Below, in pieces: positions 21,858-56,796 of a DNA stretch of 64,000 nt. The stretch is from Sandaracinus amylolyticus (GTDB lineage: Bacteria; Myxococcota_A; Polyangia; Polyangiales; Sandaracinaceae): positions 7,998,001 to 8,062,000 of the forward strand of contig NZ_CP011125.1 of the NCBI RefSeq assembly GCF_000737325.1, given 5' to 3'. Each line of letters opens with the position of its first letter. Positions within the stretch are counted from its first letter, which is position 1. The notes below the pieces were generated by a model. That model was not told the origin of the DNA. It saw only the letters and a list, made by a program, of their open reading frames with translations, and did no database searches. A program made the position numbers and the translations under genes.

Positions 21858-22199
21858 TCGGCTCCAGTCGCGCGAAGCGCGCTGCCGTCCCGAGGTTCTC
21901 GCGGGCGCGCAAGGCGCGTCCGCGAGAACCTCTCTCCCCCCACCAACAGCGGCGACTGCCTCCCTCCCCGCGCGGCCGAGACCTCACCAGCAGGGCGCGG
22001 GGGAGGGGTCCGAACGCTTCCGCAGCGGCCCACCAGTCTCCGTGTGGCCCTCGCAAGCGAGGCGGCCGCGAGCGCAGAGCGCACGTGGCCGCCGACACCA
22101 CGTCGTCAGTCGCCACCGCCGCCGCAGGTGGGCCCCGCGAGGCTTAGTGAGGCCCCCCTCCCCCGCGCCCCGACGAGCCCTCCCCCGCGCGGGGATCAG
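21858..22199 (-). repeat. Structured dispersed element, copy 1
   Basis: About 342 bp shared with 22945-24390 (interrupted by an IS) and 56269-56610. Read on the minus strand it starts TGATCCCCGCGCGGGG, 24 bp after the stop of the CPBP gene, contains the conserved block CCCTGCTGGTGAGG, then an 18-bp hairpin at 21893-21931 (one mismatched pair, loop of 3) and a CGCGC-GAA-GCGCG mini-hairpin at 21869-21881. Translated frames give Arg-rich strings that recur between copies only because the DNA is conserved. The rest of the 21718-22222 gap holds no gene. Confidence 0.85.
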
Positions 22200-22222: not shown

Positions 22223-22897
22223 TCAGCTCTCGATCGCCGGTCGCAGCGTCGCGAGCGCGAGCGCATCTGCGATCGCATGGGCGACGATCGCCGGCCAGAG
22301 GCGGCGAGTGTGCCAGTGGTGGAGCCCGAGCACGACACCCATTGGAACGATCGCGGCGACCGCGAGCGGCCCCTGATAGGCGTGCAGGAGCAGTCGGACC
22401 ATCAGCGACGCGCCGATCGCGAATCCCGGCCCCGATGCGCGCAGGCGCTCCTGGAGGAACCCGAGGTGCAAGCACTCCTCGAACACCGGGTTCACCAGCA
22501 CCAGCAAGATCGCGATCACCGGGCTCGGCGCGCCGTGGAACGCGACCGACTGCCCGCGCGACGTGCCGGCGAGCAGCGCCATGCCGAGCCAAGACGCCAT
22601 CATCGCGACCGCCCAGAGCAATACGCCCTCGCCCGTCGCGAGCCACGACGCGTCCAACTGGGACACCGAGACGCGCTTGCCGCGCGCACGCAGAAAGAGC
22701 AGCAGCGCTCCTCCGACGACGAGCTCGTAGAGAACCAGCCCGAGCAGCGTCTCGTTCGAGAAGTGGATGCGCCGCTCGAGCCCCGACGACGTCAGCTCGA
22801 GGAGCTCGCTGGTGATCGGCCACGCCCAAGCGGCGAGGAGGACGACAACGAGCTCGATGCGATCGCCGCGCGAGCTGCGCTGAGGTGGCAGGGACAT
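22223..22897 (-). CDS. CPBP-family intramembrane metalloprotease
   Basis: This 224-aa membrane protein has about six hydrophobic segments and the CPBP/Abi motifs: EE in NPVFEECLHLGFLQERL (motif 1), His in LLLHAYQGPL (motif 2) and IVAHAIADAL (motif 3, H followed by D rather than N). These residues bind zinc in Rce1-like proteases. It is flanked on both sides by copies of the structured dispersed element. Bacterial relatives are linked to bacteriocin immunity or membrane-protein processing; its substrate is unknown. Confidence 0.85.
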   Translation of the reverse strand: MSLPPQRSSRGDRIELVVVLLAAWAWPITSELLELTSSGLERRIHFSNETLLGLVLYELVVGGALLLFLRARGKRVSVSQLDASWLATGEGVLLWAVAMMASWLGMALLAGTSRGQSVAFHGAPSPVIAILLVLVNPVFEECLHLGFLQERLRASGPGFAIGASLMVRLLLHAYQGPLAVAAIVPMGVVLGLHHWHTRRLWPAIVAHAIADALALATLRPAIES

Positions 22898-23235
22898 GCG
22901 ACGCAGAGAGTAGCCGCGCGCGTGCGCAAATCACCACGAGTCAGTCGGCTCCAGCCGCGCGAAGCGCGCTGCCGTCCCGAGGTTCTCGCGGACGCGCAGA
23001 GCGCGTCCGCGAGAACCTCTCTCCCCCCACCCCACCAGCCGCGACGCCCTCTCTTCCCCGCGCGGCCGAGACCTCACCAGCAGGGCGCGGGGGAGGGGGT
23101 CCGAACGCTTCCGCAGCGGCCCACCAGCCTCCGCGAGCCCCCCGAATGCCAGGCGGCCGCGAGCGCAGAGCGCACGCGGCCGCCGACACCACCTCATCAG
23201 TCACCGACACCGCAGCAGGAGGCCCCCGCGAGGCT

Positions 23236-24335
23236 TACTGACCTTTCATCCGGCGAACGGATCGGGAGGGGATCGACACGCCGATCAGCTCGTGATCTCC
23301 TCCCGGCGTGCGACCGACCGGAAGTAAGGCAGACCTCGAACGCCGTCGTCGCCTCGGCGTGGCGCTCCATCGCAGTGGCCACTCGATCCGCGAAGTGGCG
23401 AAGCAGCTCGGCTGCGCGCCCGGCTCTGTCGCGCGATGGACGAAGATGTTCGAGCAAGGCGGCGATGACGCGCTCGATCCAATCCCGAACGCCGGCGGCA
23501 AGAGTCGCCTGAGCGACAGCGACCGGGCGAAGCTCGTGGTCCTTCTTCGGCTCGGCGCACGCACGAGCGGGTTCGCAACGGAGCTTTGGACGCTTCGCCG
23601 CGTGCGTGACGTGATCGAGCGCGAGTTCGGAGTTCACTACTCGATCTCGAACGTGCACGCCGTGCTGCACAGTCTCGGATTCAGCCCGCAGAAGGCGGTG
23701 CGCCGCGCGCGCGAGCAGGACGCGGAAGCGGTCGAGCGGTTCCGACAGGAGGAATGGCCGCGCATCAAAAAAAAGCGGAAGACGACGGCCGCGTCCTCGC
23801 GCTGAGCGACGAGAGCGGCTTCATGCTGCAGCCGTCGTCGCCTCGCACCTGGGCGCCGCGCGGCGAGACACCAGAGCTCATCTGCGGCGCACGTCACGAC
23901 CGAGTCTCGGCCATCAGCGCGATCACGATCTCGCCGCAAGCGCAGCGCACCGGGCTTTACTTCCGGCTGCTGCGCGGCAACTTCAACGCCGACGAGATCG
24001 AGCGGTTCGTGCGCCAAGTGCAGCGGGCGGTCCGCCGTCCCGTCACGTTCGTGTGGGACCGGCTCTCCGCCCATCGCACGGTCGCGAAGCGCCTCGAAGG
24101 CGATCCGCGCTTCGAGTTCATCCTCCTGCCGGCGTACGCGCCAACGCTCAACCCCGACGAGTAGGTCTGGCGTTATGCAAAGCACCATCTTCTCGCGAAC
24201 TCCTGCCCGATGAACGGGCATGCGCTCGAGCGTGGCGTCCGCGCCGCGCTCGGCTGCATCGCGAAGCGCCAGGACCTCCTGCACGGTTTCATCCGCGGCG
24301 CGCGGCTGTCTCTTTAGCCGAGACAAAGGCCAGTA
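23236..24335 (+). mobile_element. IS630-family insertion sequence
   Basis: This 1100-bp element is bounded by imperfect terminal inverted repeats: left TACTGACCTTT (23236-23246) and right AAAGGCCAGTA (24325-24335), which match at 10 of 11 positions and further inside at CGGC. The boundaries, with TA at each end, are confirmed because the flanks join into the uninterrupted sequence of repeat copy 1. TA target duplication is the hallmark of IS630/Tc1-mariner elements. It carries one transposase gene in two frames, inactivated by a stop. Confidence 0.9.
23308..24317 (+). pseudogene. IS630 transposase, two frames, nonsense-mutated
   Basis: Frame 1 (GTG 23308 to 23805) encodes the HTH DNA-binding part (HSIREVAKQLGCAPGSVARW) and the linker. 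Frame 2 (from about 23754) encodes the DDE domain: LSDESG gives the first Asp, FVWDRLSAHR the second, LNPDE the third acidic residue. Eight adenines at 23767-23774 are the -1 slippage site used by many IS630 elements. A TAG at 24162-24164 directly after LNPDE cuts the protein; the following VWRYAKHHLLAN...GARLSL to 24317 is the expected C-terminus, so this is a point mutation (Tyr or similar to stop). The copy is probably inactive. Confidence 0.88.
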
Positions 24336-24386
24336 GTGAGGACCCCCTCCCCCGCGCCCCCGCCGAAGCCTCAGCGCGCGCGGCGA

Positions 24387-25568
24387 TCAGTCCATTCGAT
24401 ACATCGTCACGACACAAGCCCCACCGAGCCCGAGATTGTGCTGCAAAGCCACTCGAGCCCCCGGGACCTGTCGAGCGTCGCCCTGACCACGAAGCTGCCA
24501 GACCAGCTCCGTGCACTGCGCCAGTCCGGTCGCGCCGAGCGGATGTCCCTTGCTCAGCAGTCCGCCCGACGGGTTCGTGACGAACTTGCCGCCGTACGTG
24601 TTGTCCTCGTCCCAGATGAACTTCTCGGCCTCGCCTTCCTTGCACAGGCCGAGCGCTTCGTACGTCAGCAGCTCATTCGCGGTGAAGCAGTCGTGCAGCT
24701 CGACGACCTGCACGTCCGAGGGTCCGAGGCCCGCCTTCTCGTACACCTTCGCCGCGGCGTTCTTGGTCATGTCGTAGCCGACCATCTTGATCATCGACTC
24801 TTCGCCGAAGCTCGACGGATAGTCGGTCGTCATCGCCTGCGCGGCGATGTAGACGCTCTTTCCGATCCCCTTCTTCTTGGCGAACTCGTCACTGCAGAGG
24901 ATCGCCGCTGCCGCGCCGCAGGTCGGAGGGCAGCACTGATATCGCGTCAGCGGGTCGAACACCTCGGGCGACGCGAGGATCTCTTCCACCGAGTACGTCT
25001 CCTGGAAGAGCGCGAACGGGTTCTTGCTCGCGTGCTTGCGCGCCTTCTCCGCGATCTTCGCGAAGGTCTCGCGCTTCGTGCCGTGCTTCCAGCGGTACTC
25101 GCGCCCCGCGCCGCCGAACATCTGCGCTGCGCCGGGCGCCGACGTGAACCCCTGCACGTCGTTCATGAGCCCAGCGTGCTTGTCGAGCGGGTTGGTGCGG
25201 TCGTTCCACTTCGCCTGCAGCGCGCCCTTCTCCATCTGCTCGAACCCGACCGCGAGCACGCACTCCGCGATGCCGCCCTCGATCGCCTGCTTGGCGAGCA
25301 TCAGCGCGGTCGAGCCCGTCGAGCAGTTGTTGTTGACGTTGAACACCGGAATCCCGGTGAGCCCGACCTCGTACACGGCGCGCTGTCCACACGTCGAGTC
25401 GCCGTACACGTATCCCGCGTACGCCTGCTCGAGGTCGCGGAACTCCACGCCCGAGTCCTTCATCGCAGCGCGGATCGCGCCCGCCGCCATCACGTTGTAC
25501 TCGTCGCTCGCGCCGGGCTTCTGGAACTTCACCATGCCCACGCCGATCACGTTCACCTTGCGAGTCAT
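24387..25568 (-). CDS. SCP-x-type thiolase / acetyl-CoA acetyltransferase
   Basis: This 393-aa thiolase is closest in motif to sterol-carrier-protein-x thiolases: [16 protein letters not shown] with nucleophile Cys82, [14 protein letters not shown], and [11 protein letters not shown] with the catalytic His. It would cleave 3-oxoacyl-CoA, probably branched-chain or sterol side-chain substrates. It lacks the SCP2 domain that follows the thiolase in eukaryotic SCP-x, but the gene 20 bp upstream encodes three SCP2 domains. Start ATG 25568 follows GGAG. Its stop codon lies within the end of repeat element copy 2. Confidence 0.92.
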
Positions 25569-53034: not shown

Positions 53035-53943
53035 ATGAGGATCCGACGTTCATGGATGCTCCCGCTCGCGCTCGTCGCGAGCGCTTGCGGCGGCGATGGC
53101 GACGGCGGCACGCCGGCGCCCACACCCTCCGCCGATGCCGAGCTCGACGCGTACTGCGCGGTCGCCCAACGCGGCGATCTCGCGACGTGGGTCGGCGACG
53201 TGCTCACGCTCTGCGCGAGCAGCGGCGAGGACGAGGTCGCGTGCAGCAGCGGCCTCTCCGCGGCGACCGGCGCGGTCACTCAGATCGACCTCGAGCTGGC
53301 GCCGCTGCGCGTGCTCCCGGCGAGCGGCGGGCGCCTGGTCGCGCTGCTCGCGGACGAGCGCCTCGTCGTGCTCGGCCCCGATCGCGCGATCGAGCGCGAG
53401 CTCGCGGCGTGGGCGTCGGACCCGTGGGTCAGCGACGACGGCGATCACGTGATGTGGGTCGGCCTGCCCGACGGCGTCGACGCGTGGGACTTCGGCGTGC
53501 CCACCGTCCTCGCGACACAGTCGCTCGACGCGAGCGCGCGCACCGTGCTCGTCGACGACGAGACCGCGTCCACGCCGCGCCCGATCCCGGGCTCGCGCGA
53601 CGTGCTCTTCGTCTCGACCTCGACCGGCCTCGCGAGCTTCTGGCGCGTCACGCCGGGCTCGCAGCCGGTGCAGCTCACGAACGTCGGGCGCGACGAGGTC
53701 GGGCCCGGCTTCGTCCCGGTCGCCGATCGCCAGCTCGCGTGGAGCGAGGGCGCGCTCTTCTACGGCGTCGACGAGGAGGACGGCAGCACGCGCATCTGGC
53801 GCTTCGACCCCGCGACGCGCGATGCGACCGAGGTCGGCCCCGGCGCATGGCCGCGCACCGCGAGCGACGGCTCCGTGCTCGCGCTCCAGCCGAGCGGCGG
53901 CGCTGCCTGCGCCGCTCGTTACCCGGCGGGAGGTACGCCGTGA
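53035..53943 (+). CDS. TolB/WD40-like propeller lipoprotein
   Basis: This 302-aa protein has signal and lipobox (LALVASACGG). The propeller repeats are short: GGRLVALLADERLVVLG, VSDDGDHVMWVGLP, GSRDVLFVSTSTGLASFW and WSEGALFYGVDEEDG. It follows the vWA-like gene by 10 bp, and its TGA overlaps the GTG start of the M23 peptidase (GTGA), so the three genes form an operon. Ligand unknown. Confidence 0.8.
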   Translation: MRIRRSWMLPLALVASACGGDGDGGTPAPTPSADAELDAYCAVAQRGDLATWVGDVLTLCASSGEDEVACSSGLSAATGAVTQIDLELAPLRVLPASGGRLVALLADERLVVLGPDRAIERELAAWASDPWVSDDGDHVMWVGLPDGVDAWDFGVPTVLATQSLDASARTVLVDDETASTPRPIPGSRDVLFVSTSTGLASFWRVTPGSQPVQLTNVGRDEVGPGFVPVADRQLAWSEGALFYGVDEEDGSTRIWRFDPATRDATEVGPGAWPRTASDGSVLALQPSGGAACAARYPAGGTP

Positions 53944-56267
53944 CGCGCCGCATCGCATTCGTCCTCGCGTGTGTCGCGATCGCGTCGTGCGCTCCAGCCG
54001 AAGACGTCGCGGTCCTCGAGTCGAACGTGAGCGCGGCCGTGCGCCGCGAGCGCGCGACGCTGATCCGCGACACCGCTCGCGCCGCGGGCATCACCAACGG
54101 CCTGCTCGTCGCGATGCTCGCCGAAGAGGAGACGTACCTCTCGCACTGCGCGAGCGAGTTCCCCGCGTGCCCCGGGCCGGGCACCGCGGACTGCGGTGGT
54201 CGCGCCGTGATCTCGGGCGGCGGTGACGGACCGTGCTCGGTCAATCAGGGCGGCCTCGGCATGTTCCAGATCGACGACGGCACCGAGGCGCAGACCGTCG
54301 CGGCGCACGGCGATCGCGTGCTCACGCTCCAGGGCAACACCCAGGTCGCGATCGAGCGGATCATCCAGAAGACGATCGCCTCGCGGTACCTCGACGGCAT
54401 CACCACGCGCCAGCAGGCGATCGACGCGATCAACGCGATCCGCATCGACGACGCGCGCTGGGATCCGTGGATCCGCACCCTCGTGCGCTACTGGAACGGC
54501 TGCCCCGAGAGCGGTCGCTGCTGGGGCAATCGCTACCCGAAGTACGACACCGCCGCGCGCACGCTCTACCGCGAGTTCGGCCACGACTTCTGGTACGGCG
54601 AGGAGCCGATGATGCCGCCGCCCGCCGGCGGTGGATGGCTCGCGTCGCCGATCGAAGGGCCGCGCGTCACGTCGTACGTCAGCAACCGCCGCGGCACCGG
54701 CTGGGCGCGCTACGACTGCACCGCGCTCACCCGCGCGAACCACCGCGGCACCGACTTCGGCGTCGCGGTCGGCACGCCGGTCCACGCGGCCGCGGCGGGC
54801 ACGGTCATCCGCTCGACCACCGGCTGCCCCGCGAACGGCTCGATGTCGAGCACCTGCGGCGGCGGCTTCGGCAACCACGTGATCATCCTGCACGACGGCG
54901 GCTTCGCGACGCTCTACGCGCACTTCAGCCCGGGCGGCGGCCAGGTGCGCAACGGCGCGCGCGTCGAGTGCGGCGACGTGATCGGCAACAGCGGCAACAG
55001 CGGTCGCTCGAGCGGCCCGCACCTGCACTTCGAGGTGCGCGCGAACGTGCGCGACGTGTCGACCTACTTCGCGTCGAGCGCGACCACGCTCGACCCCTGG
55101 GGCGGCATGTGCTCGAGCCAGACCGAGACGCTCTGGATCGGCGGCCAGCCGATGCGCTCGTGCACCGCGAGCGAGCGCGACGACGCCGTCGTCACGCGCG
55201 CGACGCACTCGGGCGAGGTCCGCGGCAGCGCGGGCGCGCGCATCACCCAGACGTTCACGTGGCGCAACACCGGCACCACGACCTGGACGTCCGAGGGCTA
55301 CGTGATGCGCCACGCCGGCGGTGCGTTCGGCACGCCGCGCGAGGTGATGCTGCCCGCGGGCACGATGGTGGAGCCCGGTCGCACCATCGAGCTCCGCGTC
55401 GACGTCACGGTGCCCGAGGCCGAGGGCCTGCACACCGGACGCTGGCGCATGGCGCGGGTGGGCGGCTCGCACTTCGGTCGCGAGGGCACGCTCGCCGTGC
55501 GCGTCTCGGGCGCGCCGCGCGCGTGCAACTCGTCGACGCTGCGCCGCACCGTGCCCGACGGCGAGTGCGTGCAGGTCTCGTATCCCGGCTGCGGCGCGTC
55601 GTCGTGCGCGTGGTACCGGTGCTCCGACGGCAGCTGGCTCTGCACCGAGGAGACCGACTGCATGGGCGAGATGCACGAGAACGCGTCGTGCGGAGAGATG
55701 CCGAGCAACGACGGCGGCGTCTCGATGGGCGATGCCGGCATGTGCACCGGCGGCGGCCAGCCCCTCAACTCGATGTGCGAGACGACGGACGACTGCTGCG
55801 AGGGCCTCGAGTGCGGCACGTCGGGCGACGGAACGCGCGAGTGCTGTCATCCGCGCGAGGATCGCTGTGCGCGTCACTCGGACTGCTGTGGATCGATGTT
55901 GTGCGTCGCGGGCCACTGCGCGTGCGCGCCGGTCAACCAGCTCTGTCTGAACGACTCGGAGTGCTGCGACGGACTGGCGTGCATCGCGGGCGCGTGCCGT
56001 GACGTCTCGAGCTGCACGCGAGAGGCGGAGTCGTGCGGGAGCCGCAGCGAGTGCTGCTATCCGCTGCAGTGCGGCGCGGAGAGCGTCGGGGGCGGCAACA
56101 CGTGCTGCATCTCGGGCGGCAATCGCTGCGAGCTCGACGACGACTGCTGCGGTGAGATGCAGTGCGTCTCGGGGCGCTGTGCGTATCGCCGTGAAGGAGA
56201 GAGCTGCGCGAATCCGCTGGACTGTTATGGGGCGCTGATCTGCCGGGATGGGACCTGTCAGTTCTAG
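53940..56267 (+). CDS. Multidomain M23 peptidase lipoprotein
   Basis: This 775-aa protein starts at GTG 53940 and has lipobox Cys17. Residues 30-220 resemble a lysozyme/transglycosylase domain (MLAEEETYLSHC, GLGMFQIDDG, YWNGCP). Residues about 240-390 are an M23 LAS domain: NHRGTDFG (H268, D272) and GPHLHFEV (H361, H363), where HxH plus H/D binds zinc. About 415-515 is an NBR1-type Ig domain (FTWRNTGTTTWTSEGY). After a Cys-containing segment the C-terminus (about 585-775) holds at least five CCxxLxC-type Cys modules. It would cut peptidoglycan at the surface, perhaps for predation or remodelling. Last gene of the operon. Confidence 0.9.
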   Translation: MTRRIAFVLACVAIASCAPAEDVAVLESNVSAAVRRERATLIRDTARAAGITNGLLVAMLAEEETYLSHCASEFPACPGPGTADCGGRAVISGGGDGPCSVNQGGLGMFQIDDGTEAQTVAAHGDRVLTLQGNTQVAIERIIQKTIASRYLDGITTRQQAIDAINAIRIDDARWDPWIRTLVRYWNGCPESGRCWGNRYPKYDTAARTLYREFGHDFWYGEEPMMPPPAGGGWLASPIEGPRVTSYVSNRRGTGWARYDCTALTRANHRGTDFGVAVGTPVHAAAAGTVIRSTTGCPANGSMSSTCGGGFGNHVIILHDGGFATLYAHFSPGGGQVRNGARVECGDVIGNSGNSGRSSGPHLHFEVRANVRDVSTYFASSATTLDPWGGMCSSQTETLWIGGQPMRSCTASERDDAVVTRATHSGEVRGSAGARITQTFTWRNTGTTTWTSEGYVMRHAGGAFGTPREVMLPAGTMVEPGRTIELRVDVTVPEAEGLHTGRWRMARVGGSHFGREGTLAVRVSGAPRACNSSTLRRTVPDGECVQVSYPGCGASSCAWYRCSDGSWLCTEETDCMGEMHENASCGEMPSNDGGVSMGDAGMCTGGGQPLNSMCETTDDCCEGLECGTSGDGTRECCHPREDRCARHSDCCGSMLCVAGHCACAPVNQLCLNDSECCDGLACIAGACRDVSSCTREAESCGSRSECCYPLQCGAESVGGGNTCCISGGNRCELDDDCCGEMQCVSGRCAYRREGESCANPLDCYGALICRDGTCQF

Positions 56268-56268
56268 T

Positions 56269-56610
56269 GAGGCGGATCTCCGCGCGGGGTGAGGCTTCGG
56301 TGAGGGCGGGTGGCAGGGGGCCCTCGCTAAGCCTCGCGACCGTCGAGCAGAGACGCTGAGCCGCGGGAGGCGGAGTCGTTCGAGGCGGGGCGCGTTCGCG
56401 CTCCGCCTCGAACCGCTTGGAGAGGTGGCTGCCGTCGGGAGGGTCGCTGCGGAAGCGCTCGGGCCCCCTGCCACCCGCCCTGCTGGTGAGGCTTCGGCCG
56501 CACGCGAAGGGAGAACGGCGCTCGCTGTGGTGGGGGCGAGAGCGTGACGCGCGAGGGCGCTTCGCGACCTCGCTCGTCACGCGGACCGGCTCGCCCTTCG
56601 GGCATCGCGG
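56269..56610 (+). repeat. Structured dispersed element, copy 3
   Basis: This copy follows the M23 stop (56267) directly and runs in the gene's direction. Conserved blocks are GAGGCTTCGG, CGCTAAGCCTCGCG, GCTGCGGAAGCG, CCCTGCTGGTGAGG and CGGCCGC. The long hairpin (56542-56560 with 56564-56582, 17 of 19 pairs) has a different sequence from copies 1-2 yet the same position, as does GCCC-TTC-GGGC at 56593-56603. The region to 56796 holds no other gene; a terminal Arg-rich ORF is a by-product of the repeat. Confidence 0.8.
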
Positions 56611-56796
56611 ACGAATGGGACGGGCTCGCGCTCCGCGCCTCGCCCCGATGTGGTGCGTGCGAGGCGTGAGCGCTGGGTCGCGCAGGGGCGTCGAGGCGCG
56701 ACCGCCGTCGACGCGCGCCGAGCATCGCGACTCCGTCGATCTCCTCTGCGGGTCAGCCCGCGCCGGATTCTCTCGGGTTGATCAGGAGGATCGTTG

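Follow-up and report, generated by a model that had tools for sequence, protein, structure and literature searches.

A family of ornately folded repeats at gene ends in Sandaracinus amylolyticus and a sister genome

Three copies of a structured element of about 340 nt lie in the 64,000-nucleotide stretch of DNA that we analyzed (the window, positions 7998001-8062000 of the single-contig genome G000 of Sandaracinus amylolyticus, 10,327,335 bases), and they are members of a larger family with at least 43 cores (22 of them in the window genome and 21 in a sister genome, G002) at 31 loci, orthologs being counted once; the copy number is a lower bound because only part of the search candidates was scored. 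The element is not an ordinary terminator but a bacterial repeat of a new and unusually ornate kind. We lean towards the reading that it is a non-autonomous, BOX/ERIC-like repeat restricted to the genus and placed in 3'-UTRs, the sense strand of which folds into an elaborate RNA. Dispersal, the existence of subfamilies, presence/absence differences between genomes, unrelated host genes and a conserved fold all fit such a repeat.

Results

Copies in the window and their adjoining genes

A covariance model, R1, was built from a folded alignment (A2) of fifteen cores, with copies 1 and 3 of the window in the training set, and a scan of the window with R1 gave no comparable match beyond copies 1-3 (Table 1). 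The initial annotation had described three copies, each immediately downstream of a stop codon and with the orientation of the gene that ends there, and we found them at these places, with the identities of the genes confirmed by domain matches (CPBP/Rce1-like PF02517, thiolase PF22691/PF00108 and peptidase M23 PF01551). The described interruption of copy 2 by an IS was likewise borne out by HTH and DDE_3 ORFs, and the interrupted copy gave an R1 match of 65.9 bits at 23055-23285(-). The limits of the IS (about 23238-24333) were set by reading the sequence against copy 1; TA was seen at either side, and the IS is possibly frameshifted.

Table 1. Location of the element copies in the window and of their parts (window coordinates)
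Feature	Position	Strand	Basis or remark
Copy 1, full-length element	21858..22199	-	Directly 3' of CPBP/Rce1-like gene 22223-22897 (-)
Copy 1 core, P1-P5 and variable hairpin P6	21965..22193	-	R1 151.5 bits; member of the R1 training set
Copy 1 3' variable hairpin H, GAGGTTCTCGCGG...CCGCGAGAACCTC, one mismatch	21892..21932	-	Sequence, inverted repeat
Copy 1 mini-hairpin CGCGC-GAA-GCGCG (plus strand)	21869..21881	-	Sequence
Copy 2, 3' portion, IS to CPBP gene start	22945..23237	-	Sequence, DNA search, R1
IS with HTH and DDE_3 ORFs inside copy 2, not part of the element	23238..24333	+	HTH_33/HTH_32, DDE_3
Copy 2, 5' portion, directly 3' of thiolase stop (24387)	24334..24390	-	DNA search
Copy 3, full-length element	56266..56611	+	12 nt 3' of M23 peptidase gene 53940-56267 (+)
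Copy 3 core, subfamily A	56279..56508	+	R1 168.5 bits
Copy 3 3' variable hairpin H, GCGTGACG...CGTCACGC, two mismatches	56542..56583	+	Sequence
Copy 3 mini-hairpin GCCC-TTC-GGGC	56593..56603	+	Sequence

The 3' stem that had been given as 18 bp in copies 1 and 2 is present, but it has 19 bp, perfect in copy 2 and with one mismatch in copy 1; the stem of different sequence in copy 3 is present too, but with two mismatches rather than as a clean 19 bp, and both mini-hairpins were found in the sequence as described. The larger part of the element had been overlooked, namely a long-range helix of about 20 bp and a junction upstream of the 3' stem, the helix being GGGCGGGTGGCAGGGGGCCC / GGGCCCCCTGCCACCCGCCC in copy 3 and GGGCGCGGGGGAGGGGG / CCCCTCCCCCGCGCCC in copy 1.

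The CPBP gene sits cassette-like between the related copies 1 and 2, and in the sister genome a single element was seen at the thiolase end, and gene calling on the sequence fetched there gave no CPBP gene.

Fold and subfamilies

The core (about 230 nt) consists of the nested helices P1-P5 and the variable hairpin P6, and is followed in order by a linker (CTCGGTGTGGTGG-like), a second variable hairpin H, which is missing in L003, and a mini-hairpin of the GCCC-TTC-GGGC type, often repeated. P1 (CCGCGCGG/CCGCGCGG), whose arms are inverted repeats, is replaced or missing in some members; P2 (GAGGCTTCGG with GAGGYYTCGG) has many G.U pairs and arms that double as direct repeats; P3 comprises about 20 nearly unbroken pairs, inside which lie a short junction, P5 (CCTCGCGAC/GTCGCTGCGG) and P6 before the return strand. 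Subfamily A is marked by CTCGCTARGYCTCGCG and subfamily B by GTGCTCGGACAGTCCTCGCG and CTGCGGAACTGCGCGCGG, and copies 1 and 2 form a third group with L063. Inversion of the core was rejected as the origin of subfamilies A and B because both run in the same direction by reading.

Some members carry additional sequences. Two B-type elements at non-orthologous loci (L090:2929-3249 in G000 and L143:3389-3705 in G002) have at the same place an insert of 82 nt that is almost identical in the two, with one mismatch seen; it is absent from L062, the G002 ortholog of L090, and its tail can form a GCTCGACCCGC hairpin. Tandem mini-hairpin units of the CTCGCCCTTCGGGCATCG type were seen downstream of the element at L089, and also at L019 and at G000:C1:1090618-1090778; related units follow some elements and also occur elsewhere in the genome. 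At L083, a 27-bp direct repeat (GGAGTGGGCGGAYTGTGAGGCTTCGGC), holding the gene's last codons and the element's first bases, lies 5' of the core, before the full element.

Family size and distribution

Copies were found by three DNA queries and by R1 on fetched loci, with two informative genomes in all, the window genome and G002 (same genus, 10.75 Mb). A DNA search with copy 1 gave more dispersed copies across the genome, R1 recognized 39 cores among the fetched loci of the two genomes and four were added later, and by these searches the three copies first noted grew to the family counted above. The cores have 70-81% GC and lack the AT-richness relative to the genome of MITE-type elements.

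Outside the two genomes, a third congener (a 6-Mb draft of 820 contigs) gave no match to the element, the DNA matches in other Sandaracinaceae and in Polyangiales were weak and unsupported by R1 where checked, and a genome-wide pattern scan returned five chance matches, in unrelated taxa. Plasmid and phage records held no DNA similar to the element, and neither of two core motifs was found in viral contigs. Rfam 15, searched at gathering and at permissive thresholds (E<=2-5), returned no family and only chance matches of miRNA models. Restriction of the family to the genus is the best reading.

Placement at gene ends

At 26 of the 31 loci the core begins between -14 and +36 nt relative to the stop codon of a sense gene, a position for which random intergenic placement in the window gives an expectation of 6.7% (P about 3e-26), and at the other five (L092, L085/L061, L088/L067, L065, L091/L072) an antisense gene has its start codon directly next to the 5' end (sense versus antisense 26:5, two-sided p = 2e-4). 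Genes were called with a codon-usage script, and those that it missed, at L076, L057, L090/L062 and L065, were assigned by reading the sequence. The stop codon falls inside the first bases of the element at about six loci, including L075 and L078. Both the distance and the strand of the downstream neighbor gene are unfixed. None of the 43 cores at 31 loci lies within a gene, and the element has no gene of its own. The location at gene ends proposed in the initial annotation thus extends to the family, and the contrary pattern, copies inside genes and in random orientation, is absent.

Sense orientation and adjacency to the stop codon would suit a 3'-UTR RNA selected by the host, which would benefit host genes by protecting transcript ends or through Rho-type termination or regulator binding. 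We regard this as rather unlikely; the genes that precede the elements are unrelated to each other, antisense gene starts take the place of the stop codon at 5 loci, and at copy 3, the only copy scanned for an intrinsic terminator, there is no T-run and no terminator-like site.

Covariation of the helices

In alignment A3, 94.9% of cells were paired, compared with 87.3 +/- 0.3% in shuffled alignments, and there were 110 double-change cells (20.8 +/- 3.8 in shuffles) and 23 pairs with double changes (9.5 in shuffles), values reached by 0 of 500 shuffles, although the pair counts are biased upward because A3 was fitted to the model and has 15 loci in the training set. Slid-structure controls on A3 gave 41-51% paired. 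Alignments A4 (subfamily B) and A5 (subfamily A) were made without structure, and in them P3, P5 and P6 were recovered with many double changes, so that the fold of each subfamily covaries; one P3 pair in A5, for example, occurred as G-C (7), U-A (6) and C-G (4). Covariation, the check proposed at the outset, is therefore strong, and selection on a folded structure, which the initial annotation had left between RNA and DNA, is upheld by it.

Among eight ortholog pairs, the share of differing positions was 4.1% in stems and 17.3% in the rest of the core, and this low stem divergence also speaks for a host-selected RNA. In the P3 helices of orthologs double WC-to-WC changes outnumbered single changes (6 to 3), as they would if DNA palindromes were kept paired by mutation, with template switching or cruciform repair copying arm onto arm and no role for RNA. 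The tips of hairpin H are inverted between the orthologs L074/L054 and L082/L056 (GAGCGCGCGAAGCGCTCTC vs GAGAGCGCTTCGCGCGCTC), which points to cruciform or template-switch events, and palindrome-correcting mutation could therefore make some of the paired changes. As an account of the whole fold, however, such correction is unlikely: single differences between orthologs in P1-P3 were 9 to G.U and 1 to A.C, and therefore the sense strand, hence RNA, is favored. When all copies are compared, G.U cells outnumber A.C cells in all helices except P1, reaching 163 to 1 in P2, whose arms are also direct repeats, and resting on few columns outside P2. The conserved junction motifs, unpaired motifs and P5 and the fixed orientation to genes also count against such correction. 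Selection at the level of RNA rather than DNA is thus favored on the pattern of substitutions.

Turnover between the sister species

Both species have the element at twelve loci, and the retention of these loci is a further point for a host-selected RNA; shared-locus fixation together with strong conservation of the fold could equally mean host function. At 3 of the 11 tabulated pairs (L077/L066, L084/L057 and L082/L056) the interior belongs to the other subfamily, as at L077, the window copy 3, which is of subfamily A and has a subfamily B interior at its orthologous sister locus. The swapped pairs are 0.74-0.97 identical in the 5' flanks and 0.81-0.93 in the 3' flanks, compared with 0.65-0.66 in the interiors; flanks, arms and hairpin H are orthologous, whereas the nearest relative of the interior is a paralog. 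The exchanged block runs from a P2 or P3 strand to the matching place on the opposite strand, and pairing is therefore kept. Interiors of paralogs reach 85-91% identity, near the level of orthologs.

Where the sister site of an unshared locus was read (15 loci), eight held remnants, with both arms in six and the 5' arm alone in two, five were without trace of the element and two were ambiguous. The remnants differ in their junctions, which fall in short repeats (GGCTTCGG, CGCGGGG, GGC, TGC), a pattern that slippage over a palindrome would produce; deletions of this kind, typical of palindromes, count in favor of the correction of DNA palindromes discussed above. We also considered pre-existing 'empty hairpin' target sites and rejected them; the two genomes hold just one instance of the pattern, and it coincides exactly with the ortholog of an occupied site. 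Because this is the single empty pattern and other remnants keep bits of P3, the remnants are taken as deletions and not as insertion targets. The sole candidate target-site duplication (8 bp) is at L092, with GTCATGAG on both sides versus one CTCATGGG in G002 (L095), and the other clean absences showed no clear duplication.

The deletion of the interior at 8 loci and the absence of the element at 5, with the gene remaining, argue against a host-selected RNA, and since host genes are still there where the interior is gone, a non-autonomous repeat is a better fit than a host regulator. The suggestion of a terminator RNA was not sustained either, because of the missing T-run at copy 3 and because the two sister species have freely lost or exchanged the interior.

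Mobilizing enzymes and known RNA systems

Eight reverse transcriptase (RT) genes of group-II-intron appearance are present in the window genome and not in the sister genome, and three retron-like RT genes are common to both (types judged from sequence). These genes, together with an ornate RNA that is dispersed and lies near TGA/TAG, speak for an origin of the elements from one of the known mobile systems with an RNA component (HEARO/omega RNA of IscB, group II intron, or retron msr-msd), the protein having been lost. Such an origin is highly improbable, since no Rfam match was obtained even at permissive thresholds, either to HEARO (RF02033) or to a group II intron (domain V), R1 gave no convincing match beside the four RT genes scanned, and Y1 transposase (PF01797) is absent from both genomes, the control genomes being positive. 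The REP/RAYT route is also unlikely because there is no Y1 transposase in the genome. These searches brought to light no enzyme that would mobilize the element. A search for RRXRR (PF14239) gave no match, and the control genomes gave none either. By reading, the attC core boxes RYYYAAC / GTTRRRY are absent from the conserved columns of A2-A5.

The RVT_1 matches on G000:C1 (at 172012, 1463274, 2237593 and 6480714, and further at 8587925, 9086747, 9737454 and 10316101) are all eight near-equal; the one that was read looks like a group II intron RT, and none of that score was seen in the congener.

Discussion

Previous studies described the BOX elements of Streptococcus pneumoniae as modular interspersed repeats with extensive predicted RNA structure, some of them shown to be transcribed; in 36 cases the repeat is found at the very 3' end of a gene, which takes its stop codon from the repeat without clear truncation (PMC3049150). 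The element described here is similarly modular, with extensive predicted structure and a stop codon within it at two of the loci named above (L075 and L078). This likeness is one of features, with no relation in sequence claimed, and there are clear differences, as our element keeps to a single orientation relative to genes and has its 5' end anchored at the stop codon, its covarying fold is far more ornate, its GC content is high, and whole interiors are swapped while the address stays the same. ERIC, BIME/REP and Correia elements are short intergenic hairpin repeats, taken as non-autonomous mobile DNA and able to affect transcripts (PMC3049150, PMC2229807). Like these MITE-like repeats, the present family consists of dispersed, highly base-paired intergenic hairpin repeats, but it is larger, has a nested long-range helix and conserved junctions, and occurs with no Y1 transposase in the genome and no consistent target duplication. 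With HEARO, the omega RNA of IscB, it shares being an ornate RNA-bearing element dispersed in genomes (PMC9755519). It differs in having no RF02033 match, and no linked nuclease was seen. The attC sites of integrons are structured sites 3' of gene stops in which sequence is variable and pairing is kept. Stop-adjacent structure and kept pairing are common to both, and the arrangement of the CPBP gene between copies 2 and 1 is cassette-like; however, our elements are dispersed singly over the chromosome, are about 340 nt long and have no attC core boxes.

If the element is a non-autonomous repeat, as we are inclined to believe, copies would reach gene ends through a mobilizing activity and would be co-transcribed as 3'-UTR by read-through from the host gene. 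Conservation of the fold may then reflect a role of the RNA, or of its processing, for either the element or the transcript. Whole hairpin interiors would be exchanged between copies already placed, for which gene conversion with the conserved arms as anchors is the simplest account, and the long palindrome would at times be lost through slippage between short repeats. We also considered a selfish structured 3'-UTR RNA at stop codons, the interior of which is renewed by RNA- or cDNA-templated replacement at fixed addresses, and hold it to be very doubtful; were it true, an 'address' (the arms) and a 'cargo' (the folded interior) would evolve separately.

The family adds to the bacterial interspersed repeats an ornate, strongly covarying element outside Rfam 15, and its placement rule, the 5' end at the stop codon and in sense, is seldom so tight among such repeats. 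The paired sister genomes show turnover directly, with exchanged interiors at the same address, deletion remnants and clean absences. This system therefore lets RNA-level constraint on bacterial repeats be tested, together with the exchange of modules without broken pairing.
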